Part shown: piece after piece, positions 18,693-39,464 of the stretch
How the letters are laid out: each line of letters starts with the position of its first letter
How positions within the stretch are numbered: the first letter of the stretch is position 1
Origin: Halorhabdus amylolytica
Lineage (GTDB): Archaea; Halobacteriota; Halobacteria; Halobacteriales; Haloarculaceae
Assembly (NCBI RefSeq): GCF_004944975.1
Contig: NZ_SPQG01000015.1
Location: forward strand, 1-64,000
Direction of reading: 5' to 3'
Length of the DNA: 64,000 bases
Translations under genes and position numbers: made by a program
Notes under the pieces: generated by a model
Told to the model about the DNA's origin: nothing
Databases searched by the model: none
The model's input: the letters and a program-made list of their open reading frames with translations, nothing else

Positions 18693-21600
18693 TCAGGTCG
18701 TCCGCAGGTGATCCGTCCGGGGCTCGTAAACCTCACCCTGCTGTTTGAGTTTCTCGATCTCGTGTTCGGCCTTTGAGGCCTCCATGCCGACTTCTTCGGC
18801 GCGCTCGATTACGACGTCGACGGGCGCACCCTCGTCGTACTCCTCCTCGATGTCGGAGATGATGCCGCGGATGTTCTTGATCCGATCGCGCTGGGACTTC
18901 GAGGTCCCCGTCTCGACCACGTCGGCGTCGAGTTCACCCGTCTCGGGGTCGATGCCGATGTCTTCCAGCGACGACCGGACGATCCCGATGACGCGCTCTG
19001 CGTCTGCCTCCTCGACGGTATCCGAGAGCCGAACGCGAGCGCTCGCTTCGGCGAGACGCACCAGCGCCTCCAGTTTCCGGGCCGTGACGGGGACCGGCGC
19101 GTCCTCGCCCGACCCCTTCGTCCGCAACTCGACGTAGAAGTCCCGGATGGCCGCCTTGGCCTCCTCGGTCATCGTCGGGAAGCAACTCCGCTTGGCGTAG
19201 GCGACGTACTTCCGGAGGAGTTCGGGATCGATCTCCGGGGCCACCGTATCGGTGACGTTGTCGACCTCCTCGGCGCTGTAATCGGGCGTACTGTTTTGCT
19301 CCCGGTGAGTGTTGAGTTCGCCCGCGTAGTTCGTCCGCAAGATGTGTTCGGCCAGTTTGGCGTCCTCCTCCTCGTCGGGCTGGTCGGTGACGGTGAAGAT
19401 GAGGTCAAAGCGCGAGATCAGCGCCGGTTCGAGATCGATCTGCTCGCCAATGGGCTCGTACTGGTCGAAACGGCCGTACTTGGGGTTTGCCGCCCCAAGG
19501 AGCGAGCACCTGGATTTGAGCGTGGCATTTATTCCAGCCTTGGAGATGCTTATCGAGTTGTGCAGGACGACACCCTGACTCACGAACGTGTTGGTCGGTT
19601 CGACCGTCACGTCGTAGACCCAATCTGTGGCGTGCTCACCTTCGTTGGGGAGCGTTTCGACGTCGGTGATCGTCTCCGTCCCCATTCCGGTCGCAGAACC
19701 GGGACTTTGCGCAACTGAACCGCCATCGGAAGCGACCGGAGCCGGGACAGGAGTTCCAACTGAAACGTCACTGGCAGGGACTGTGTCCCACTCATCATCA
19801 CTCTCGACGAACATCGGATGCTCAGGTGTGACGACCACCTCTCGTCCGTTCGAGAACGAGACACGGACGAACTCCTCGGGAGCCTCGTGGCGACTGACCC
19901 GATCGACTGGGAGCTTCTGTACGTCGTTGTCGTCCAGATCAGCAGAATGGACTCGCACGTCCTCAACGGGCAAGATTTCACAATCGACGCCGTCGATCAC
20001 GTCTTCGGAACGCTCGGCCATCCGCTCGTCCACAAACTCCCCGATCTCGACCCGTCGACCGTCTGCGAGGAGGAGTTCAAAATCGGGATGGTAGGACTGC
20101 TGTTCGAGCGCTTCGTGCATTGCCGAGCGATCTTCCGAATTATGGACGACCATGCCGTTGGCGAGGAAATTGTGGGTGCCTTCGACAGTCAGGTCGTAAA
20201 CTGAATCGTAGTCGTGGTCCGGGACGCTCTCGACGTGTTCTACCGTTCGAAGCCCGATATCGTCGGACTCAGATTCCACTGGGGAAAAACGATCGGACGC
20301 GGTATCGATTTGGGCTGTTCCACCGTCAGTCGCCTTTGCGGAGCGTTCCGGAACGTAAACCTGATCGCCCGGTTGCAATTCTTCGGCAGGCGTCTCGACT
20401 CTCCCACCCGCCTGCTCGATGAAGAACGGATGATCCGGCGTGACAGTCACGGCCTCCCCGGTCGAAAGTGTCACCTCGTAGAGTGTCTCGGGTGCGTCGT
20501 ACTCGTGGATGGCCGTCACCGGGCGTCGCGTCAACGTCTCGTCGTCGGTCATCGTCCACACGTCGAGATCGACATCCCGTATCGTGCGCCCGTTCGGGAG
20601 TTCCTCGATGGATCCCGCTTTGGCAGCTTCGATAGCCAGTTTGCGTATCCGTCGTTGTCCATCAGCCGCCTGCACGAGGGTATCGCCCGCCACGCAACGC
20701 ATTTTGTCGAGTTCGTCGACAGCAGCGATCCCGCGGTCGGCCAACACCAGCGCGCCGGCTTCCAGCGTCCACTGCTGGCCGTCACCGAAGTCATCTCTCA
20801 CAGCCGCAGCGGTGTTGTGCGTGACCAGTCCGTTGCCGAGGAAGTTGTGCGTCTCCGGGACGGTCAGATCGAAGACTTCCTTCTCGCCGGTATCAACGGC
20901 AGCGACGACCTCCTCCCACCGGAGGTCGGCCTCGACGGCCTCCTCGACGAGCGGTTCGACCGGCCCGCGGTCGATATCCGCGAGCATCGATCTGGCGCGA
21001 GCACGCCCCGGGTTGTCGCCGCGGTTGACGTTCTGATAGTAGTCGCCGGCGACGCCCTCGACGGCGGCGAGCGCCGATCCGACCGGGACCGTCTCGCGCT
21101 GGCGTCGCTCCTCGCGGACGATCTCCTCGAGGGCAGTCTGCTTCTCGACGCTCTCAAAGCCGATCGCCTCGGCGTAGCGGTCGATGTCCGCGCCGTACAG
21201 CTCCAGGAAGTACTGGACGTGGCCGGATTCGATCTTGTGCCCATTGGCCAACTCGGACGTTCCGCGCCGATCACGCTCCCGTCGTCGTGCCTTCACGCCG
21301 TAGGACTCCAGCATGAGCTGGACCTGTTCCGCCAGCCTTTCGCTGATCGTCGACAGCAGGACGCTCGACCCACCCCTCTCTCCACGGACCGAAACCGATC
21401 CGTCGGCGTCCATTAGCCCGCGGAGGAACGCGTCTCCGTGTTCGGCGGCAGTGAGTTCAGAGGCGAGCGCCAGATCTTCTTTCGGCGTCTCCATCCCGGC
21501 GTTTTCGAACAACCGGGCGATGGTGACGCTGTTGACCCGAATACACGGCACGCGGTCGTCCTGGCGTTCGATCTCCGGGCGCTTGTCGAACTTCGATTCG

Positions 21601-24404
21601 AAGATATCGGCGGCCCGTTCGAGCAGCGCCTCGTCACCGTTGGAGAGCCGGACCATCCCGCGGTTGCCGTCCCGGTGGTCCAACGAGATGTCGCCATCGC
21701 CGAAGACCAGCCCGAGTAGATACATGAGATCCGCGTCGAACGTCTCCGGGATCGTGATGCTCTCACCGTGACGCACCATCAACCGCTCAAAGTCGACATC
21801 CGAACGCATCGCGTCGATGCCCTCAAGCATCCGATCGAGTTTCTCCAGCGGAACGTGGCGGTTCTTCAGGTGGAGATAGATGAAGTCCTCCGAGAGGTCG
21901 AGGGCGGCGGCCGCATCCCGGAGCGTGCCGAATTCCTCGGTGAGTTCTGTCCGGAAGAACTCGATGGATTCCTCGGTGAGCCGGACCTTCTCCGTCGAGA
22001 GCGCCAGGAACTCCCGAACGTCTACCTCAGTGCGATCGAGGTCTTCGAAGCGCGGTGCGGCGATGAAATCGCCAGCCTCGACGTCCGAGATTTCGGTCCA
22101 CTCGATGCCGTCGCCCCCGCAGGTCAACACCGGCGTGTTCACCGAAGCCTCGAGTTCCTTGCCGTACTCGGTCTCGATCCGGCGGGTCGGCTTCTCGGGC
22201 ATCCGCCAGACGTGACTCGACGCCCGGGCATCCATCTCGCCGTCCTCCCGATCGAAGGTCTGGACGTCGACCTCTCGCTCGGCCGCTGTTTCAGTGGCGA
22301 CTGGCTCCGGGAGGTCTTCCGCCACGAGATCCCGGATCTCTCTGAATCCGTCCTCGGTATGGATCCGCGTGTCTCCAGTGACGCACAGCCCTGCCGAACT
22401 GGACCCCTTCCCCGACGTGAAAACTGACCGCGGCGCGATGTGACGAATGTACTGGAGGATCTGGGAGTTGTGAGAGACGACGCCGTTGGAAACGTAGCTG
22501 TGGGTGCCCTCGACTTCGAGATCGTACACCCACTCGTCGTCGGGTTCGACCGTCTCGATCGACGCAATGCGATCCCATCGAACGTCGTTCGTCGCGAGGT
22601 CCCGCAAGCGGTCGACGGTGGATTCGACGGCAAGCGCCTCCCCAAGTCGGTCACGGACGACCCCACTGGCGGCGACCGTCTCACCGCCATCAGGTGCGAC
22701 CTTATTGCGCTCGTAGTAGCTGATCGCCGTCTGGGTGACGTCCATCCCATCGGCGAGCGATTGCTGTGAGATCCCGAGTTCGTCCCGCAGTTCGACGATC
22801 GTCTCCCAGTCCTCGCCAGCCAGCCCGTCGCGCTGGTCTTTCAGCCACGCTAATCGCTCCTCGAACGCATCGACGGCGGCTCGAAGGGACTTGCGACTGG
22901 GGTTTCGGTCGCCGCGCTCGTAATGCTGGTACTTCTCACGAGATACACCACAGTCAGATTGTGAAAGTGCAAGTGATTCGCGAATTTCGTGAAGGGTTTC
23001 ACCGGACATAGGGACGACATCGCGGGAATCCACCTCGATTCGATCGTCTCCAGCCGCCGGAAGCGATCGCGGCGTGGCGACGAACTGCCCTTCCTCGAGC
23101 TTTTCAGCCTCTACCGCCGTCGGCGTCCCGTTCTGCTGGACGAACAGCGGATGGGACGGCGTTACATCGAGTTCTCTCCCACTCTCGGTCCGGATCCGGT
23201 ACAAGTGCTCAGGAGTCTCCCGCTTCCAGACTTTGGTCGCTTCGGCCGTCGTGAGCGACCCATCGGGGGCGAGCGTGGGGAGCGGGATCGACGCGTGATC
23301 CCAGACGCCGTCGTCAACGGGCTTGGGATCGTCGAGGTTCGATTCGACGATGTCTCCGATCAACTTCGTCGTTCCGTCGGCGAGTTGTACGTTCGTGTCG
23401 GCGTCGAGGCACTTTCCGGTGCCAGGGTCCCCGATCAGGAGCACGTGCAGATCCCCACGTATCCGGGACTCATCAGGCAAGTGTTTTGTCACCCCTGAGA
23501 AAAGTTGGAGTGCGATTGCGAGTTTCTCCTGATCGTAGCCGTAGATCGAGGGCGCGATGGAGGCGGTCATCTGCTCGTAAATGTCCCCTTGCTCCGAGAG
23601 GGCGACGATCTCCTTTTTGTCGTCCTCGTCGATGTCCATCTCCTCGAACTCCTCGTCCTCGATCTCGACGTCGACGCCGTCCATGTAGACGTCGAACATC
23701 GGAGACTTCTCGCGGTCGTTGCCACGCTGGTCGAGTTTGAGAACGCCCGTTACCCGGACGTGATCGCCGGCGGTAACCTCGCCGGTGATGTCGTCCTCGA
23801 TGTTGACGTCGATGTTCTGTGGTGTCTCACCGCCGCGCAGTCCCTCGGGGGATTCCTGAACCCGGAGTTTCTGGGCATCGATGAATTCGGACTGGTCGAA
23901 GTTGATCCGGAACGGGCCCTGGCGTTCACACCCCTGGCACTCGTGGGGTTCCTGAAAGTCTCCCGTCGACTGGGGAATGCGTGAGAGGGTGCCACACCGC
24001 TGGCACTCGAAGGCGGCGTCAGTGATCTTCGGCCGGACTTCGGTGGCCTTCCGGATGATGCCCTGAATGCTGACGAGCTGGCCGCGGTGGTCGGCCCGGA
24101 TCTCCCGGATGTCCGTCGACTCCGGGAGGTTGGTCATCCGGACGTGGGCCTGCCCGAGTTTCACGTCGATCGGCAGGTCAAAGAGCCGGAGCGCTTCCTC
24201 GGCGTACTCCTGGAGCTGTTCGGGTTTGTTACGGTAGTCCTCGGCCAGATCGGGGTCGAAGCGATAGAGGTCCTGCCAGTCGACAAAGAGCGACTTCTGG
24301 TCGTTGGGGTACTTCTGGGCGAGTTCGCCGATCTCGTTGCGGTAGTAATCCCGATAGAACTCCTCGAAGAGATCGACGAACTCCGTGTTCTCCGCGCGAG
24401 CCAT
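18693..24404 (-). CDS. mcm: Replicative helicase MCM interrupted by four inteins
   Basis: Hexameric 3'-5' DNA helicase of chromosome replication. The translated precursor is 1903 residues. Removing four inteins (residues 332-646, 674-1197, 1237-1422, 1437-1616) leaves a 698-residue MCM, the usual haloarchaeal length. Extein features: zinc motif Cys134, Cys137, Cys156, Cys159; Walker A GDPGTGK-S, split by intein 1; Walker B AAVDELDKM; arginine-finger region LISRFDLIF; C-terminal winged helix. All four junctions have a Ser or Thr as first C-extein residue. The ATG at 24404 starts the conserved MARAENTEF; longer in-frame codons fall in the repeated upstream region. Every reading frame is intact, so splicing is presumably needed for viability. 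Confidence 0.95.
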   Translation of the reverse strand: MARAENTEFVDLFEEFYRDYYRNEIGELAQKYPNDQKSLFVDWQDLYRFDPDLAEDYRNKPEQLQEYAEEALRLFDLPIDVKLGQAHVRMTNLPESTDIREIRADHRGQLVSIQGIIRKATEVRPKITDAAFECQRCGTLSRIPQSTGDFQEPHECQGCERQGPFRINFDQSEFIDAQKLRVQESPEGLRGGETPQNIDVNIEDDITGEVTAGDHVRVTGVLKLDQRGNDREKSPMFDVYMDGVDVEIEDEEFEEMDIDEDDKKEIVALSEQGDIYEQMTASIAPSIYGYDQEKLAIALQLFSGVTKHLPDESRIRGDLHVLLIGDPGTGKCLDADTNVQLADGTTKLIGDIVESNLDDPKPVDDGVWDHASIPLPTLAPDGSLTTAEATKVWKRETPEHLYRIRTESGRELDVTPSHPLFVQQNGTPTAVEAEKLEEGQFVATPRSLPAAGDDRIEVDSRDVVPMSGETLHEIRESLALSQSDCGVSREKYQHYERGDRNPSRKSLRAAVDAFEERLAWLKDQRDGLAGEDWETIVELRDELGISQQSLADGMDVTQTAISYYERNKVAPDGGETVAASGVVRDRLGEALAVESTVDRLRDLATNDVRWDRIASIETVEPDDEWVYDLEVEGTHSYVSNGVVSHNSQILQYIRHIAPRSVFTSGKGSSSAGLCVTGDTRIHTEDGFREIRDLVAEDLPEPVATETAAEREVDVQTFDREDGEMDARASSHVWRMPEKPTRRIETEYGKELEASVNTPVLTCGGDGIEWTEISDVEAGDFIAAPRFEDLDRTEVDVREFLALSTEKVRLTEESIEFFRTELTEEFGTLRDAAAALDLSEDFIYLHLKNRHVPLEKLDRMLEGIDAMRSDVDFERLMVRHGESITIPETFDADLMYLLGLVFGDGDISLDHRDGNRGMVRLSNGDEALLERAADIFESKFDKRPEIERQDDRVPCIRVNSVTIARLFENAGMETPKEDLALASELTAAEHGDAFLRGLMDADGSVSVRGERGGSSVLLSTISERLAEQVQLMLESYGVKARRRERDRRGTSELANGHKIESGHVQYFLELYGADIDRYAEAIGFESVEKQTALEEIVREERRQRETVPVGSALAAVEGVAGDYYQNVNRGDNPGRARARSMLADIDRGPVEPLVEEAVEADLRWEEVVAAVDTGEKEVFDLTVPETHNFLGNGLVTHNTAAAVRDDFGDGQQWTLEAGALVLADRGIAAVDELDKMRCVAGDTLVQAADGQRRIRKLAIEAAKAGSIEELPNGRTIRDVDLDVWTMTDDETLTRRPVTAIHEYDAPETLYEVTLSTGEAVTVTPDHPFFIEQAGGRVETPAEELQPGDQVYVPERSAKATDGGTAQIDTASDRFSPVESESDDIGLRTVEHVESVPDHDYDSVYDLTVEGTHNFLANGMVVHNSEDRSAMHEALEQQSYHPDFELLLADGRRVEIGEFVDERMAERSEDVIDGVDCEILPVEDVRVHSADLDDNDVQKLPVDRVSRHEAPEEFVRVSFSNGREVVVTPEHPMFVESDDEWDTVPASDVSVGTPVPAPVASDGGSVAQSPGSATGMGTETITDVETLPNEGEHATDWVYDVTVEPTNTFVSQGVVLHNSISISKAGINATLKSRCSLLGAANPKYGRFDQYEPIGEQIDLEPALISRFDLIFTVTDQPDEEEDAKLAEHILRTNYAGELNTHREQNSTPDYSAEEVDNVTDTVAPEIDPELLRKYVAYAKRSCFPTMTEEAKAAIRDFYVELRTKGSGEDAPVPVTARKLEALVRLAEASARVRLSDTVEEADAERVIGIVRSSLEDIGIDPETGELDADVVETGTSKSQRDRIKNIRGIISDIEEEYDEGAPVDVVIERAEEVGMEASKAEHEIEKLKQQGEVYEPRTDHLRTT
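19557..20096 (-). other. MCM intein 4: mini-intein, Ser1 type, at ALEQQ/S
   Basis: Precursor residues 1437-1616 (180 aa). Block A begins SYHPDFELLLADGRR with Ser instead of Cys as first residue. Block B is REVVVTPEHPMF with the TxxH motif. The C-terminus is FVSQGVVLHN followed by Ser of SISISKAGI. There is no endonuclease domain between blocks B and F. It sits in the region after Walker B, only 14 residues past intein 3. Confidence 0.92.
20139..20696 (-). other. MCM intein 3: mini-intein, Cys1 type, at DKMR/S
   Basis: Precursor residues 1237-1422 (186 aa). It begins CVAGDTLVQAADG, has block B EAVTVTPDHPFF, and ends HNFLANGMVVHN before Ser of SEDRSAMHEALEQQ. No LAGLIDADG motif is present. The insertion point directly follows the Walker B DELDKM of the helicase. 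Confidence 0.94.
20814..22385 (-). other. MCM intein 2: full-length intein with LAGLIDADG endonuclease, at SSAGL/T
   Basis: Precursor residues 674-1197 (524 aa). It begins CVTGDTRIHTEDG and ends HNFLGNGLVTHN before Thr of TAAAVRDDFG. Two LAGLIDADG motifs are visible: LLGLVFGDGDISLD (about 895-908) and FLRGLMDADGSVSV (about 993-1006), so a homing endonuclease is probably intact. Block B reads ELEASVNTPVLT, where the usual TxxH histidine position is Thr. An extra helical region (about 803-890) precedes the nuclease and may bind DNA. Confidence 0.94.
22467..23411 (-). other. MCM intein 1: Cys1 intein carrying tandem XRE-type helix-turn-helix domains, at GDPGTGK/S
   Basis: Precursor residues 332-646 (315 aa). 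It begins CLDADTNVQLADG, has block B ELDVTPSHPLF, and ends HSYVSNGVVSHN before Ser of SQILQYIRH. No LAGLIDADG motif is visible. The space where a nuclease would sit holds two XRE-like helix-turn-helix segments: GETLHEIRESLALSQSDCGV with KYQHYERGDRNPSRKSL (about 467-506), and ETIVELRDELGISQQSLADG with TQTAISYYERNKVAP (about 534-571). The intein interrupts the ATP-binding P-loop. Confidence 0.93.
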
Positions 24405-24420
24405 TCTGGTAGCGTCTATT

Positions 24421-24502
24421 GTGCGCACTGCCTCAAGAAGGTTCCCAAACCGGGGTGAAAGTACTCCCAGCAACCAGCGCGACGCGAGGCCGACTACATC
24501 GG
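24421..24502 (+). repeat. Direct repeat, left copy (mcm upstream region)
   Basis: This 82-bp stretch begins 17 bp before the mcm start codon. It recurs at 28622-28703 in the same orientation with one mismatch (GTGCGC here, GTACGC there). Similarity fades gradually over the next 45 bp. It marks the left boundary of the AT-rich island. Confidence 0.9.
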
Positions 24503-24570
24503 CCTAGTTCGAGATGAGAATCTCGGCCGTGCATAGACCTGAACAGCGACGAATATTATCACTTCTAAAG

Positions 24571-24744
24571 TCAGTTACTATCATAGACAGATGAATACAA
24601 CGAACCGACATACCCAAATGTTGCAAGAAGCAGGCCAAATACCGCAAAAGCGCTTGCATTATCTAAATTCAGTGGTGGCAGCCCGTAAAGTGCTGAGTAG
24701 TATATCACTAATCCATAGATAATCGTATCAGTCGTAATGCTCAT
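24571..24744 (-). CDS. 57-residue membrane protein in the AT-rich island
   Basis: The reading frame begins MSITTDTIIYGLVIYYSALY and has two hydrophobic segments (about residues 7-21 and 32-50) joined by a short GLPPLNLDN loop. The stop is at 24571-24573. It is too short for family recognition. The well-formed two-helix pattern argues for a genuine gene. Function unknown. Confidence 0.5.
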   Translation of the reverse strand: MSITTDTIIYGLVIYYSALYGLPPLNLDNASAFAVFGLLLATFGYVGSLYSSVYDSN

Positions 24745-24821
24745 ACTATCATTAGTATCTCACCATATTATTCTGTTTTGGTGTTTTCTAGCTCTGTTTG
24801 ACCGTGTCACAGCTTGAGCAT

Positions 24822-24941
24822 CTAACGGCCAGAATCATCTGCCCATTCGAAGTTGATGAGTGCAACGACGATCCGAATATACAGCGCAAGGAATATGCAG
24901 TACCATCGGCAGTTCCGTAAAATCGTCCTCCTGTTTGTCAT
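24822..24941 (-). CDS. Possible 39-residue single-helix membrane peptide
   Basis: The frame starts MTNRRTILRNCRWYCIFLAL, giving a positively charged N-terminus, one hydrophobic helix (about residues 13-31) and an acidic tail (EWADDSGR). An AGGAAATG sequence sits at the start. Without homology information this is only a candidate. It may equally be a remnant. Confidence 0.25.
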   Translation of the reverse strand: MTNRRTILRNCRWYCIFLALYIRIVVALINFEWADDSGR

Positions 24942-24944
24942 TTC

Positions 24945-25221
24945 CTACATAGAACTGCCCTAGAAAGCACTCTAACAGTGACTCACTATCTATTCAACAC
25001 AGCAATCTCTTCGGTCGTGTAAGAGGGTGTCGTTGAGAGTTTCTTCCAAAGCGATACCCTCTCGGTCCGACCGGGAAGACTAACGATGCAACCGCCCGAA
25101 GCACGCCGATAATCTCGCCGACGTAAGCTGCTTGATCCATGAGACAACATTCAATCTCGAACGGAAACAACTCGACGCGAGCGAGCACGCGCGCGAGAAG
25201 CGTAACCAATTTGTCTATGGG
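24945..25221. other. Island stretch without a supported intact gene
   Basis: A minus-strand frame at 24994-25209 reads protein-like text (MDQAAYVGEIIGVLRAVASL) but ends in an implausible Arg-rich tail and has no recognisable motif. I regard it as a decayed fragment. Nothing else stands out. Confidence 0.3.
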
Positions 25222-25238
25222 ATGTTCTAAAAGAACAT
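25222..25238. promoter_or_regulatory. Perfect palindrome abutting a start codon
   Basis: ATGTTCT (25222-25228), AAA, AGAACAT (25232-25238) is a perfect 7-bp-arm palindrome that ends at the base before the ATG of the 74-residue membrane protein gene. On a leaderless message this would overlap the transcription start and could be a repressor site. Confidence 0.45.
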
Positions 25239-25463
25239 ATGTCCTACACTTTCCCCACCCTGAAAGTCATCACCGGGATCATCATCGTCATCCTGATTAC
25301 ATGGTTTGGTCCGACAGAGGGAGACTACTTTACCGAGTTTCTTTTCTTTGGTATTATATTCGCCATGGGGCTGTTCGTCGCGGTTCACGGCCTGTTTCAG
25401 GGTATCGAGACCGCAGTCGCCGCTGCCACAGAGACGGACGGGGAAGAAACTATGGCCGAGTGA
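25239..25463 (+). CDS. 74-residue two-helix membrane protein
   Basis: The product starts MSYTFPTLKVITGIIIVILI and has two membrane helices (about 8-22 and 34-55) and an acidic C-terminus (ATETDGEETMAE). The start is fixed by the palindrome directly before it. It lies in the AT-rich island. No family is recognised, and small proteins of this form are common in haloarchaeal plasmids and proviruses. Confidence 0.65.
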   Translation: MSYTFPTLKVITGIIIVILITWFGPTEGDYFTEFLFFGIIFAMGLFVAVHGLFQGIETAVAAATETDGEETMAE

Positions 25464-25719
25464 CAGCAGGGACTCCCACGTAACCACACCAAGACGGGAC
25501 TGTGCCTAGATAAACCACGAAGGCACAGATACCTCTTCGCCGGCAGACCGATTGGACTGACCGTTGTCGATATCTAACGACTCACAGCCGTCTCCTCGCG
25601 GCCCATCTCTCCAAGCATCTGCTGGCAATAACCGGCTGCAACGGGAGAACCGATGATGCCACGAATCCGGAAAACAACGATAGGGGGGGGGAGACGACGC
25701 CCAATGTCTGCCAGGGATC
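25464..25719. other. Island stretch without a gene
   Basis: No coding sequence or RNA is supported here. A G9 homopolymer at about 25683-25691 may fall inside the decayed transposase continuation. Confidence 0.3.
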
Positions 25720-26100
25720 GGCTGACACCACCCTCATGTCGGCCGAATTGAGGCAAGAGGCAAGTCAAGCAGACTGCGGCAGGCAGCCTGCTGGACAAAG
25801 TGCATAAAAGCTTCGTCATGACGTATTCACGGTTGGAGAGTAAACGATCGATTGTGCCTCTAGACGGCGGTCAATCAAAGCTACAAGTCAAACAGAAGAC
25901 CGCGTTCCAAAACTCTCGTTCAATGGGGCGGACAAAGATGTCTCGGTAGTAACGGTGGAGAAAGACGCGCATCATCTCTAGTGGTTCGTGGTCTCGTGTT
26001 CGCCACGACGCAGACGGTGCGAACACGTCGAACTCTTCGAGAAACTCGAAAGGGAATTACTCGAACAGCGTGGCGTCTCTGTCTCCACGACATTGAAAAA
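25720..26100 (-). pseudogene. Decayed transposase fragment (IS5/ISH-type N-terminal region)
   Basis: Minus-strand reading gives FLEEFDVFAPSASWRTRD, then HEPLEMMRVFLHRYYRDI, RPIEREFWNAVFCLTCSFD and, after an in-frame stop, PPSRGTIDRLLSN. After a frameshift it gives FVQQAACRSLLDLPLASI. This order resembles the N-terminal region of haloarchaeal DDE transposases with MMRVFLH, CGFDRPPSRDA and EQAA-GLLD segments (from memory of the family). Stops at about 25871 and 26060 and at least one frameshift show that it is dead. The catalytic half is missing. Confidence 0.65.
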
Positions 26101-26300
26101 CGAATCTTCAGAAGAATTATCTTGTAGGGTCCTTCGACTCATTTTCCTCAGCGTTCCCCTGCTTTTGGTGTACTTCGTTCTATGGAGTCCTCCGTTACAG
26201 CTACTGCTCAGCAGTATCCATAATACATAAATGGAAAAGTACATCCAATATAGAAGTACAAAACAAAAACATTATAATAGATAACGTTCTCCTCCAAAAC

Positions 26301-27476
26301 ATGAGGCGCAGAACTTACCTCAAAGGTATTGTAGCATCAACCAGCCTGCTCGGATTTTCCGGATTCGGTCAGGCAAAAAGCAAGAGTGAGAAACAGACAA
26401 ACAACCCAGAAGAGGTCCAAGTTCTAAAAGGGACACCAGACGAACCAATTAGCTCAGAAGGGATCCAAAACGCGAACCAAAAGTTATTAGATAATGAGAA
26501 TGGAAAAATACAGGCTCAAAATAATAGAAGGCTAGTACTACCAGATCCGAAGATTCCGGACAGTCGAAAGGCGGTGAGTTATATGATTGGAACTACCGTG
26601 TCTGGGCAAGTCAAATACTTCTGCGGAACGATTCCCGAAGACACTCATCATCCAAAGGCTGCAAAAGCCAATCACAAAAAAATGGATCAGTATATTACTG
26701 AAGTGAATTCTACTGATTCATTCACGACCGATTCGATCAGTACACAGAGTACTTGTTCAGACGAGGAGGTTCCCAGTATGGCCCAGATGGATGGTTCAAA
26801 ACAAGCGGTAGAAGGTTTTGGCTGTCCGCAGATTGGGGGACGGAGAATTGACGAAGGGTCATATGATGGGCCTGACTCCTACAAAGAAACCATGCCAGAA
26901 GGGGAGGTTACTGTAGAAGAAAAATTCTACCACGACTATCTGGAGGGTTACGATGATGAAACAGCAGACCAGTGGTGTGGGGCCCTTACCGCAGTCAGAG
27001 TTACTCCTGGATCTGAATTAACTTCTTCATCTGCTAAAGACGAATTCGTCCTTGGACATTGTAACACATCGCATAATTGGGACCAAAATGCGTACATGAG
27101 CCCAGAATCTGGCCATGATGATCAATCTAATGCAATATATGGGAATAATAAAAACTCAGGAGGAACCAAAATATCCTCCGTGAGTATATCTGCCGGGCCA
27201 AAGAGCTTCGGATTCGGAATTGGCTGGACGCCGGAAGATACGAAGATAACCACTAGCATTGACTCCAGCCGTGCAAGGTGGGAAGTCAATTATAATAGTC
27301 CTCGAGATCGAACTGCAACCCACACTTGGGGAAGTGTCTGCCAATATGAAGAGAAGGCAAACAGTGGAGATAAAGTTCTAACTTCCCGTGTTGACACACA
27401 ATTTGCAGACTTTGTGGGGCCCATGGTGATTTCAAGGGCGAACAGTCACACAGAGGTCGACTATACCTTTAATTGA
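26301..27476 (+). CDS. Tat-exported protein of unknown function (AT-rich island)
   Basis: A 391-residue protein with a twin-arginine signal (MRRRTYLKGIVASTSLLGFS) and no lipobox, so it is probably released or wall-bound. The mature part is polar and rich in Ser, Asn, Asp and Gly, with at least five Cys (FCGTI, STCSDEE, GCPQ, WCGAL, GHCNT) that could form disulfides outside the cell. A TATA-like TTATAATA at 26272-26279 supports the ATG at 26301. Codon use is much more AT-rich than in the chromosomal neighbours. No enzymatic motif is recognised. It may be paired functionally with the next exported protein at 27610. Confidence 0.8.
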   Translation: MRRRTYLKGIVASTSLLGFSGFGQAKSKSEKQTNNPEEVQVLKGTPDEPISSEGIQNANQKLLDNENGKIQAQNNRRLVLPDPKIPDSRKAVSYMIGTTVSGQVKYFCGTIPEDTHHPKAAKANHKKMDQYITEVNSTDSFTTDSISTQSTCSDEEVPSMAQMDGSKQAVEGFGCPQIGGRRIDEGSYDGPDSYKETMPEGEVTVEEKFYHDYLEGYDDETADQWCGALTAVRVTPGSELTSSSAKDEFVLGHCNTSHNWDQNAYMSPESGHDDQSNAIYGNNKNSGGTKISSVSISAGPKSFGFGIGWTPEDTKITTSIDSSRARWEVNYNSPRDRTATHTWGSVCQYEEKANSGDKVLTSRVDTQFADFVGPMVISRANSHTEVDYTFN

Positions 27477-27609
27477 TATAATCGCGTAGTAGAATTGACG
27501 TTTGTATAACTATCCCCATCAATGAGACATGATTATTATATTTTTGAATGTTCTTTATAGACATTATGATTTAGAAATACTTATTTTTGTATAACACTTT
27601 CTGTGCGAT

Positions 27610-28236
27610 ATGGGTGAAATGACCCCTACCCGGCGAACCGTAATTAAGAGCCTTGGAATTGTCACCGCTGGTGCTCTATCCGCAACAACCGCAACAGCAG
27701 CGTCCCGTAGAGAAGTCGAGTTAGGCGCTCGTTATTCCGGCAACGAAGTTGATTTTGAAGCTTGGTTCACATCAACTGATGTGGAGGGCGAAAATGATGT
27801 TGCTCGGGACAACACAATTGGCACCAAAAATAAAAATAACGAGTCTTATGGCTATGTTAGCGTAAATACTTCCTCAGACAGCTTGTGTCAGTATTCTATT
27901 CCTAGTGACTCATTCGTTCATCTTATAAGGGTAAATTCAGGAAAGCTTCAATTCGAAACTGGAAATATTTCTGACTCTAATACTGAATCTGATGTAGAGT
28001 TGCACTCTATGAGTGAGGATAAAGCTGATTATCATGTTTCCGTTTCAGGTGATGTTTCTCCTCGAGATAACGTTGAAAATGGATCCCCCCTTGGTAATGA
28101 CAAAGTGGTAACTGATGTGAACGGGAATAAGCGAATGAATGGAAGAGTTATAGATGGTGAAGACACATATGATATTAGTGGTCAATTCGTGCAAATGTAT
28201 CTAGATCCAGACGTACAACTAGAGCGCTACGCATGA
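27610..28236 (+). CDS. Tat-exported protein of unknown function (AT-rich island)
   Basis: A 208-residue protein with a twin-arginine signal (TPTRRTVIKSLGIVTAGALS) and an ALA-type cleavage region (ATTATAAS). The mature part is about 180 residues, acidic, predicted beta-rich, with one cysteine (SLCQYS). TTATTTTT at 27581-27588 is a fitting TATA element for the ATG at 27610. The 133-bp spacer from the preceding gene has its own promoter, so the two are not strictly an operon. Family unknown. AT-rich codon use marks it as acquired. Confidence 0.75.
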   Translation: MGEMTPTRRTVIKSLGIVTAGALSATTATAASRREVELGARYSGNEVDFEAWFTSTDVEGENDVARDNTIGTKNKNNESYGYVSVNTSSDSLCQYSIPSDSFVHLIRVNSGKLQFETGNISDSNTESDVELHSMSEDKADYHVSVSGDVSPRDNVENGSPLGNDKVVTDVNGNKRMNGRVIDGEDTYDISGQFVQMYLDPDVQLERYA

Positions 28237-28266
28237 GTGGTTGATTACCCAGAAAACCATTTGTCT

Positions 28267-28560
28267 TTAGGTAAGACACATCCCAGTTGCGTAGCGTTGG
28301 CGAGCGTCTCTTAGAAATCGGTCGGTATTGTGAATCTTCTGTGCGTCTTCGATCAATTCCTTTTCACAACTGCGGTGGTGAGTAGCCAAAATACTCGCCG
28401 AGTTCATGGAGGACAAACTGGATGTACGACGGTAAGTTCGCCGCCTAGCGTTCCGGCGGAAACACGATCTCATCGTCAACCTAGTCGGTGACGAGATCCA
28501 AGGTCACGGCTTACTAACAGTGACAGTAATGCCGCGTAAGACAGATTTTTCATGACATCC
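28267..28560 (-). pseudogene. Decayed reading frame of unknown family
   Basis: Two minus-strand frames read protein-like text in turn. The first has VDDEIVFPPER, stop, then AANLPSYIQFVLHELGEYFG, and the second has CEKELIEDAQKIHNTDRFLR and DARQRYATG. In-frame stops and the frame change indicate a broken gene. I do not recognise the family. Confidence 0.35.
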
Positions 28561-28579
28561 GGGTTGCTCGTGTCGAACT

Positions 28580-28613
28580 CATCCGGACGTGGGCCTGCCC
28601 CAGTTTCACGTCG
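28580..28613 (-). pseudogene. Scrap of mcm coding sequence (codons 79-90)
   Basis: These 34 bp match 24135-24168 inside mcm with one mismatch, in the same orientation. They are followed, after 8 bp, by the copy of the mcm upstream region. About 250 bp of mcm 5' sequence present at the functional locus are missing between the two. The piece is therefore the remnant of a second mcm 5' end with an internal deletion. Confidence 0.85.
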
Positions 28614-28621
28614 CTTCAATC

Positions 28622-28703
28622 GTACGCACTGCCTCAAGAAGGTTCCCAAACCGGGGTGAAAGTACTCCCAGCAACCAGCGCGACGCGAGGCCGACTACAT
28701 CGG
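28622..28703 (+). repeat. Direct repeat, right copy (mcm upstream region)
   Basis: 82 bp identical to 24421-24502 apart from one base. The sequence diverges after CATCGG but scattered similarity continues to about 28745. Together with the mcm scrap at 28580 it marks the right edge of the AT-rich island. Confidence 0.9.
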
Positions 28704-28785
28704 ACCGGCCCGAGACGATAATCTCGCCTGTGGCTACCCCGAACCAATCCAGTTCCAAGTGACGATTCCCATCAGGACATCACCC

Positions 28786-28828
28786 GTAAAACTTATTTTA
28801 CTACGTCAAATGCGTTTTACTGTAAAAC
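28786..28828. promoter_or_regulatory. Tandem palindromic operators of the XRE micro-operon
   Basis: GTAAAA-CTTA-TTTTAC spans 28786-28801 and GTTTTAC-T-GTAAAAC spans 28814-28828. Both are perfect inverted repeats built from the same half-site. They lie 37-79 bp upstream of the first start codon (28865), with a weak TATA-like TCTTTACG at 28831-28838. Autoregulation by the XRE protein of the operon is the simplest reading. Confidence 0.6.
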
Positions 28829-28864
28829 ACTCTTTACGACAAGAGCGTTTGACGGATCTAAACA

Positions 28865-29002
28865 ATGACAACGGCACAACACACACAAGATTCGAACGCA
28901 TCGATGCGTGCAGGACTGTTATTCGGCGTTAGAGCGGTTGCACTGGGCATCCTGTCGTCGTTCCGGCCGCTCGCTGAGTCGTTACGCACGGGGGAACTAT
29001 GA
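28865..29002 (+). CDS. 45-residue protein, first gene of the DUF2178/XRE micro-operon
   Basis: The frame reads MTTAQHTQDSNASMRAGLLF and continues with a hydrophobic stretch to about residue 31, ending RTGEL. Its stop overlaps the ATG of the next gene (ATGA at 28999-29002), the same coupling as between the next two genes. One membrane-associated helix is likely. Function unknown. The coupling and the operator upstream support it. Confidence 0.6.
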   Translation: MTTAQHTQDSNASMRAGLLFGVRAVALGILSSFRPLAESLRTGEL

Positions 29003-29394
29003 GTGAGTTCCTCGTACGGCCTTCCCGGACCCGACGTGTAGTCGGCGCATTGACAGTCCTCGGCGCGGTTGCTCTTGCCGGTTTCACCGTGCTCGAACGG
29101 CCGCTGGTCGGTGTCGCCGTCTTCGTCCTGGCCATGGTCGGTACGGCACTCGTCCAGTCCCGGGCAGCGGGGCCGGTGTTCGACGAACGCGACGAACATA
29201 TTTCCCAGGAAGCCGCCGCGTTGACGCTGACGCTAGTCGGGATAAGTTCCGCGGTCGTGTTCCCTGCTCTGACAGTCGCGTGGGGACTGAATCACTTCAC
29301 TTGGAAGCCCTGGAGTACCGCGATCGCGATGTTTGTCGCCGTCATCTACCTGATCTACGGCGCGTTTCTCGTCGCGCTCGGTAGCCGGAGGTGA
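28999..29394 (+). CDS. DUF2178-like four-helix membrane protein
   Basis: A 131-residue membrane protein with four helices (about 13-30, 32-50, 75-95, 102-124). The segment VFDERDEHISQEAAALTLTL between helices two and three is characteristic of the DUF2178 family, which is regularly encoded next to a small XRE repressor in archaea and bacteria. Its role is not known, though involvement in membrane stress or toxin-like control has been suggested by context in other genomes. Start and stop both overlap the neighbouring genes. Confidence 0.8.
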   Translation: MSEFLVRPSRTRRVVGALTVLGAVALAGFTVLERPLVGVAVFVLAMVGTALVQSRAAGPVFDERDEHISQEAAALTLTLVGISSAVVFPALTVAWGLNHFTWKPWSTAIAMFVAVIYLIYGAFLVALGSRR

Positions 29395-29627
29395 CTGACG
29401 TGGACAACTCACTCAAGGAGTATCGTGAGGAGAACGGACTCAGCCAGCGGGCCCTCGCCGAACACGTTGCGGTCACCCGACAGACGATCAACGCCGTCGA
29501 GGGTGACCGATACGATCCGTCGGTCGAACTCGTCTTCAAACTGGCAGCGTTCTTCGAGGTGCCTGTCGAAGATCTGTTTCACCCCGATATCGAACTCGAA
29601 ACCAGCGTCTCCGAGACCACCGACTGA
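29391..29627 (+). CDS. XRE-family transcriptional regulator
   Basis: A 78-residue single-domain repressor. The helix-turn-helix covers YREENGLSQRALAEHVAVTR followed by QTINAVEGDRYDPS, and the C-terminal FFEVPVEDLFHPD is typical of the small YozG/HTH-XRE group that partners DUF2178 proteins. The GTG at 29391 overlaps the preceding stop (GTGA). A GTG at 29400 is a possible alternative. It probably binds the tandem palindromes at 28786-28828. Confidence 0.88.
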   Translation: MTDVDNSLKEYREENGLSQRALAEHVAVTRQTINAVEGDRYDPSVELVFKLAAFFEVPVEDLFHPDIELETSVSETTD

Positions 29628-29708
29628 TACGGATTATTGTCGTGATGTACCGGTATCCGTCGACCCCCGGGTCGGCGTCATCCGGGAATAATCGACAATA
29701 ATCCGTAT
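29627..29708. repeat. 16-bp perfect inverted repeat forming a long hairpin between convergent genes
   Basis: The sequence beginning ATACGGATTATTGTCG (29627-29642) is exactly reverse-complemented at 29693-29708. The 50-bp interior holds a smaller hairpin (CGACCC, CC, GGGTCG). The left arm begins on the last base of the XRE stop codon. It may be a bidirectional terminator or a miniature inverted-repeat element. Confidence 0.75.
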
Positions 29709-29768
29709 GAGACGTTACGCGTACAGAGACGTTTACATGTCTCCGGCGGACGGTGTCTGGTTCGTTCA

Positions 29769-29774
29769 AAAAAG
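29769..29774 (-). terminator. T-tract terminator of the pha operon
   Basis: Six T in minus-strand reading, eight bases after the phaC stop codon, fit the U-rich archaeal termination signal. No strong hairpin accompanies it apart from the inverted repeat further on. Confidence 0.4.
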
Positions 29775-29781
29775 GGTGCCG

Positions 29782-31122
29782 TCACTCGATCGCGTCGAAC
29801 CAGTCCTCGACGCGGCCCGGCGGGGCCTCGGCGATCTCGGCGACCGTCTCGGGATCGGACTCCCGGAGGTCCTCAATCGTCTCGATGCCCGCCGCGCGCA
29901 GGCGTTCGGCGTAGGTCGGGCCGATGCCATCGACCGTCTCGATGTCTGGCGAGTCAACGACTTCTTCGGTCGTTTCCTCGGCGTCCTCGGGCCCTGTATC
30001 CGCCGATTCCTCTTCGATCCGCGAGCGCTCGCTGAACCACTCGGCGACCTGCGGCCAGACGTCCTCGTGGGTACTCGAGGAGACGGCCATGCCGACGTGG
30101 CCCGTCGAGTACTCGATGATCCCGGTGTCCCCACTGGGGATGACGTCGTTGAACGGCTTGCTCGCCGACGGCGGGACGAGGTGGTCGTACTCGCCGACGA
30201 TCTGCAGGACCGGCATGTCGATGTTGTCGATGTCGACGTGCTGATCGCCCAGGTAGAGTTCGTTCTCGTAGAGCTTGTTGCTCTGATAGATGTCCTCTAA
30301 GAACTGCGCGTAGGTCGCGCCAGCGACGTCGACGCCCTCCTCGAGCCACCGTTCCATCCGCGCGAAGTTCTTCACGAAGTCCTCATTGTCGAGGTTCTCG
30401 GCGAAGCGGACGTACTTGGTGACGTAGTTGTCGATGGGGTCCATCAACGCGAACCCTTCGTCTAAGAACTCCGAGGGGACGTTCCCGAACGTCTCGATCA
30501 CCTGTCCGGGATCGTAATACTCCTCGTCTCCCCACCGTTCGAGGACGCCGCCCGATTCCTCGAAGTACAGCCCGGTCGCCATCAACCCGAGGGCGTTGAC
30601 TTTCGCCGGATGAAGAGCACTGTACATCACGCTCATCGTCCCGCCCATGCAGTACCCCAGGATGTTGATAGCGTCCTGGCTCGATCGCTCCCGCACCACG
30701 TCGACGCAGTTGTCGATGTAGCGATCGACGTAGTCCTCCAGGGTCAGATGCCGGTCGAGCCGCGAAGGCTCGTTCCAGTCGATGAGGTAGACGTCGTGGC
30801 CCGCTTCGAGAAGCCGACGAACGACTGATCGGTTGGGCTGCAGGTCGAGGATATAGGGCTTGTTGATCAGCGCGTAGACGATCAGGATCGGGACGTCCTC
30901 GCGTTCGTCCTCGGGGATGTCGATGCCCGCCGCCTCGGGATCGTAATGGAGGAGTTCGAGTTTGTTCTCCTCGTAGACGACATCAGCGGGTGTGGTCCCT
31001 ACCTCGACATCGGCCATGGTCTCGAGGCGATCGTCGAGCACCTCGGCGGTCTCGCCCGCCTCTTGGATCTCCTCGAGTGCTTGGCGCTGGACGTCCAGCG
31101 CGGCACTCAGTGGGTCTGCCAT
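29782..31122 (-). CDS. phaC: Class III polyhydroxyalkanoate synthase subunit PhaC with C-terminal helix-hairpin-helix domain
   Basis: Polymerises 3-hydroxyacyl-CoA into PHA granules together with PhaE. The 446-residue product has the lipase-like box GYCMGG with catalytic Cys158, Asp313 (GEYDHLVPP) and His342 (GHVGMA). The last 54 residues ([20 protein letters not shown] and on) form a helix-hairpin-helix of the kind seen in DNA- or protein-binding proteins. That part is separated from the enzyme by an acidic linker (about 370-392). The ATG at 31122 is preferred; a GTG at 31131 overlaps the phaE stop. It is last in the phaR-phaP-phaE-phaC operon. Confidence 0.95.
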
Positions 31123-39251: not shown

Positions 39252-39464
39252 GTGAAAACAAGATCACAGTGTCTTTTCAAATCTCCGTTCGTTCGGACCT
39301 CAGTAGACATTCCAGCTCGCTACCCGGGCTCGGGGCTTCGCCGTTCGCCGTTCGAGACGCTCTCCCGTCGCGTCTCGCTACGCTGTGCGAGCTGTGGCTT
39401 CCAGGGTTCAAATCCTCACTCTTCCGTTTGGGGGCGCTCGGGAATTTGCTCGCGCCACGCAAAG

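Follow-up and report, generated by a model that had tools for sequence, protein, structure and literature searches.

Between mcm, the gene encoding the MCM helicase of Halorhabdus amylolytica, and the neighboring phaC gene lies an AT-rich island. Its ends carry two copies of the mcm 5' region, and 4047 bp (4.05 kb) separate the repeats. The window, i.e., the whole 64,000-nucleotide stretch of contig NZ_SPQG01000015.1 analyzed here, was placed in context by comparing its genome (G000) with six other species of the genus (G001-G006). The locus possesses the following features:

18696-24404, minus strand: mcm, MCM helicase, intact native copy of 1902-1903 aa with four inteins
24134-24168, minus strand: mcm codons 79-91, the source of the fragment at 28579-28613
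24409-24531: left copy of the leader repeat, the native mcm promoter region, 88.6% identical to 28610-28732
24532-24800: AT-rich stretch (39% GC) with no identified homolog, containing a 57-aa open reading frame at 24571-24744 on the minus strand
24805-24893, minus strand: remnant of an ISH11-type (IS5 family) transposase, C-terminal end, 70-76% DNA identity, tblastn E 0.002
24905-25008: end of a second IS5-family element, preserved as a relic, 72% identical to a transposase end on the Natrinema zhouii plasmid NZ_CP084885
25239-25463, plus strand: gene for a small membrane protein of 74 aa; a diverged paralog lies elsewhere in the genome
25716-26202, minus strand: relic of an ISH11-type insertion sequence (IS), N-terminal half and end, 75-79% DNA identity to an IS in several haloarchaeal plasmids
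26301-27476, plus strand: cargo gene 1, intact, 391 aa, Tat-type signal, no known domain, 62% to its Haloferax larsenii homolog
27610-28236, plus strand: cargo gene 2, intact, 208 aa, Tat-type signal, predicted all-beta, 58% to its Haloferax larsenii homolog
28257-28585, minus strand: shortened ISH8-type (IS4 family) transposase relic, C-terminal part, 73% DNA identity to the ISH8A locus
28579-28613, minus strand: decayed copy of mcm codons 79-91, meeting the ISH8-type relic in a GGATGA overlap
28610-28732: right copy of the leader repeat, running into ancestral DNA and colinear with G006 from 28622
28733-29627, plus strand: ancestral right flank, a DUF2178 membrane protein and an HTH_3 regulator (28999-29627) recognized by Pfam and shared with G006

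The resident mcm gene translates without an internal stop, and its Pfam matches comprise MCM_N, MCM_OB, MCM, MCM_lid, MCM_WH, and four Intein_splicing stretches. One of the four inteins has a LAGLIDADG domain, and the precursor is approximately 1900 aa long. The leader block at 24404-24462 is conserved in all six genus relatives, and the mcm-proximal half of the leader is conserved across the family. The motif CTCAAGAAGGTTC(C/G)CAAACCGGGGTG (24404-24462 and 28627-28663) is conserved in several of the family's genera, where it precedes the mcm start codon by approximately 30-40 nt. The same motif also occurs upstream of a different gene, of 215 aa, in two genomes (L084 and L085) and at a site in G015 (L087). 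The motif may be a shared operator.

The two leader copies form a direct, not inverted, duplication, with resident sequence flanking both and its outward order preserved. The original prediction, made from the letters of this DNA, reported an 82-bp repeat with one mismatch. Its coordinates are exact (24421-24502 versus 28622-28703, mismatch at 24423, copies offset by 4201 bp), and the similarity extends further, to 123 bp at 88.6% identity (24409-24531 versus 28610-28732; BLAST within the window, E 2e-40). At its core is a 79-bp run, 24424-24502, that is identical in the two copies. A second recurrence adjoins the right leader copy: the 35 bp at 24134-24168 reappear at 28579-28613 with 34 positions identical (E 6e-10), corresponding to codons 79-91 when numbering starts at the ATG at 24404. 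Chance is excluded as the origin of both the leader repeat and the mcm-fragment repeat. The prediction further held that a piece of mcm sits beside the right copy, that a deletion separates the two, and that one mcm is functional while the other decays. All three points stand: the piece measures 35 bp (codons 79-91), approximately 240 bp of mcm (24169-24408) are missing from the right copy between fragment and leader, and an intact gene on the left is paired with a decayed 5' fragment on the right.

Identity between the leader copies is mosaic. Specifically, 5 of the 13 positions just left of the core (24411-24423) and 9 of the 26 just right of it (24503-24528) differ, i.e., the edges of the core are more than 30% diverged. 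In simulations that scattered 14 mismatches randomly across the 123 bp, the probability of a run of 82 bp or more containing no more than one of them was 5.5e-5. G006 differs from the leader core at approximately 10 positions, and within this core the copies resemble each other more than G006 resembles either of them; thus, they were made alike after the G006 split. An exact core with diverged edges fits recombination between related mcm regions. The source of the mosaic could be either an exchange inside the core, with the edges coming from a diverged donor, or later gene conversion of the core. Selection may also contribute on the mcm-proximal half of the leader, though not evidently on the remainder. 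The mismatches at 24411, 24414, 24417, 24420, and 24423 are spaced at strictly 3 bp; they precede the start codon and correspond to third positions when the mcm frame is extended. A coding leader, considered on account of this spacing, was rejected, as relatives vary at all three positions there.

The genus comparison establishes when the island was acquired. A search of G001-G006 found it absent from all six. G006, the nearest of them, presents the empty site: its mcm and leader run straight into the sequence found to the right of the island, and 28622-29627 is colinear in G006 at 80%, followed by phaC. The empty site in G006, together with the presence of the island in no other member of the genus, indicates a gain in the window lineage after the G006 split. 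Looking for an empty site in relatives was the check proposed with the original prediction; it turned up in G006, and the relatives do not carry the island genes beside mcm. In G001-G005, phaC directly follows the mcm leader, without the HTH/DUF2178 operon; the DUF2178 and HTH_3 genes occur between mcm and phaC only in G000 and G006. Because that operon is common only to G006, the island is possibly the second insertion at the mcm-phaC gap, and, judging from gene order, the gap may be an insertion hot spot.

The island differs from its surroundings in composition, as the description of an AT-rich stretch of approximately 4.1 kb with alien-looking genes had implied. GC content is 0.39-0.53 across the island pieces versus 0.62 in mcm and 0.63 in phaC, and GC3 is 0.41 and 0.33 in the cargo genes versus 0.77 in mcm. 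No Rfam family was found in 23800-29800. The paralog of the 74-aa gene lies at G000:C20:346066-346169 (78% over 104 bp), and the alignment spans 25204-25479 in the window.

Approximately one-quarter of the island (about 1.0 of 4.05 kb) consists of decayed IS relics, a component absent from the original prediction. These are nested remains of at least three elements. The two ISH11-type halves (24805-24893 and 25716-26202) have the same orientation and lie 0.8 kb apart, with the end of the second IS5-family element and the 74-aa gene between them. Every coding-strand frame of the large ISH11- and ISH8-type relics is interrupted by stops (5-8 per frame in 25716-26202), and no second ISH8-like copy besides 28257-28585 was found in the genome. 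Together, the relics bracket the cargo pair, the ISH11-type reaching to approximately 26202 and the ISH8-type starting at approximately 28257. The ISH8-type relic ends mid-gene, exactly at the start of the mcm fragment, and the 6-bp sequence GGATGA is common to both sides. From its sequence, this junction looks like a microhomology deletion rather than an IS end. Given this deletion and the loss of codons 1-78, the right mcm copy was probably once longer. As the IS relics show, the original junctions were overwritten by several later events.

The intact genes between the relics encode two proteins whose Tat-type N-termini were judged by eye from the sequence. Neither belongs to a family in Pfam, NCBIfam, PHROGs, or the PDB sequences. 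Homologs are sporadic: in the order, matches occur in 7 of 392 genomes for the 391-aa protein and in 10 of 293 for the 208-aa protein, own genome included, and most are weak. The best match comes from another family, in Haloferax larsenii JCM 13917, where the pair is adjacent, in the same order, and likewise in an AT-rich stretch. In genome G065, both homologs are adjacent but divergently oriented, with 30-33% identity. Conservation at codon positions 1, 2, and 3 is 0.73, 0.79, and 0.40 for the 391-aa gene and 0.65, 0.80, and 0.39 for the 208-aa gene. Positions 1 and 2 are kept far better than position 3; thus, the cargo genes have been under selection as proteins. Structure prediction yielded a moderate all-beta model for the 208-aa protein (pLDDT 67), for which a fold search returned no credible match (best E 0.11), and a pLDDT of 28 for the 391-aa protein. 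A halocin identity, considered from PMC12893001, was set aside, as no sequence link or family match was found. The notion that the two Tat-type proteins form a mobile secreted module, for example an antagonist and its immunity protein or partner, that spreads between haloarchaeal families and entered here by homologous capture at the mcm promoter is a conjecture to which we assign little credence.

How did the island arrive? Direct observation covers the duplication, the empty site, the mosaic identity, the junctions, and the presence of IS relics to either side of the cargo. We favor, with a probability of roughly 0.5, an old additive insertion at the mcm promoter by homologous recombination, which duplicated the leader and was followed by decay of the redundant copy. 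The donor DNA would have carried an mcm 5' region, at least from codon 91 through the leader, joined to the foreign cargo. Its likely source is this lineage or a related one, and it would have taken the form of a circle or a partner chromosome. With one exchange in the leader that both DNAs share, all that lies between the duplicated homologous stretches would be added. Of these stretches, the left one would stay with the working mcm, and the right one with the former upstream neighbor, the HTH/DUF2178 operon and then phaC. Such an arrangement is what Campbell-type integration leaves, and the locus displays it: a direct duplication surrounds the insert, and the resident order is kept outward. 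The redundant right mcm copy would then decay, partly through IS-linked deletions. One microhomology deletion would have joined it to the shortened ISH8-type IS, and another would have removed codons 1-78. We infer that a single event brought both cargo and duplication, that the exchange was homologous and took place within the 79-bp core, and in what order the IS events occurred. A search of plasmid records and of 146 family genomes found no donor in which the mcm stretch is joined to the cargo, although one may have existed outside these collections, and the donor's homologous stretch is too short for placement in a tree.

A possible but rather unlikely alternative is that the mcm 5' region was duplicated in tandem in place, by replication error or unequal exchange, with the IS elements and the Tat pair entering afterward and conversion homogenizing the core. 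The nested, decayed relics of at least three IS elements do testify to repeated insertion at this spot, and the mcm-phaC gap had already gained the HTH/DUF2178 genes in the ancestor of G000 and G006, unless the other species lost them. However, this route requires the duplication and the cargo to have arisen in different events, and it must invoke conversion at a later stage to account for a mismatch-free core of 79 bp next to edges that are more than 30% diverged.

Improbable, in our judgment, is an origin driven by the IS elements themselves, in which the cargo moved as an ISH11...ISH8 composite or through recombination between IS elements and repair of the target produced the mcm duplication as a side effect. 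The close bracketing of the cargo by ISH11- and ISH8-type relics and the joining of the mcm fragment to the ISH8-type relic are in its favor. However, those relics belong to different families, where a composite transposon would have two copies of one IS, and the sequence duplicated at the flanks is a long mcm 5' region. IS transposition yields target duplications of a few bases, whereas the duplication here is approximately 400 bp. Moreover, no ISH8- or ISH11-type relics were found near the pair in Haloferax larsenii or G065.

Least probable, and very doubtful, is integration, site-specific or homologous, of a plasmid or virus with its own mcm gene, including a cryptic plasmid that has since lost its hallmark genes: haloarchaeal plasmids and viruses can carry mcm genes, and the direct repeats at the two ends resemble attachment sites or Campbell integration, but the island has no replication gene, its main open reading frames include no integrase or recombinase beyond dead IS transposase relics, the cargo has no match in phage records, viral contigs, PHROGs, or plasmid records (plasmids match the IS relics only), and the mcm fragment and leader are those of this genus rather than of a diverged viral mcm type. 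The absence of a visible integrase had been noted from the start; the plasmid or virus proposed as the captured DNA found no support in these searches. Of the broader claim that an element with mcm sequence recombined into the mcm locus, the insertion and the decaying copy are upheld, homologous capture is plausible rather than proven, and the plasmid or virus is unsupported.

The locus resembles several known systems in part. In Streptococcus pneumoniae, a transformable bacterium, transformation generates merodiploids with duplications of approximately 100-900 kb via IS repeats (PMC3784515). As in merodiploidy or Campbell integration, a partial duplication of resident sequence surrounds acquired DNA here, leaving one working and one redundant copy; unlike in the pneumococcal case, the traceable mcm 5' sequence amounts to about 0.4 kb, and the event is known only by reconstruction. 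The island shares low GC, degenerate IS relics, and sporadic cargo with the IS-rich, AT-rich islands of haloarchaea (ISH8/IS4, ISH11/IS5), yet it is bounded by the duplicated promoter region of an essential replication gene. Like integrative elements with att sites, it is flanked on both sides by direct repeats, and a relative has the site empty. Unlike them, it has no integrase and no tRNA target, it sits at a promoter, and its repeat is long and unevenly diverged, comprising 123 bp plus the mcm fragment. A tRNA attachment site was rejected, as the window's only tRNA lies far away, at 39464.

The island is thus a fairly clear fossil of gene gain beside an essential archaeal gene, with the empty site preserved in a sister species. 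As a genome scar it is of a known kind, and the co-traveling secreted gene pair might be the only part that is surprising. That pair of predicted secreted proteins, with no known domain, is the unexplained part. For the haloarchaea, the locus suggests that AT-rich islands of alien genes can arise without an integrase.
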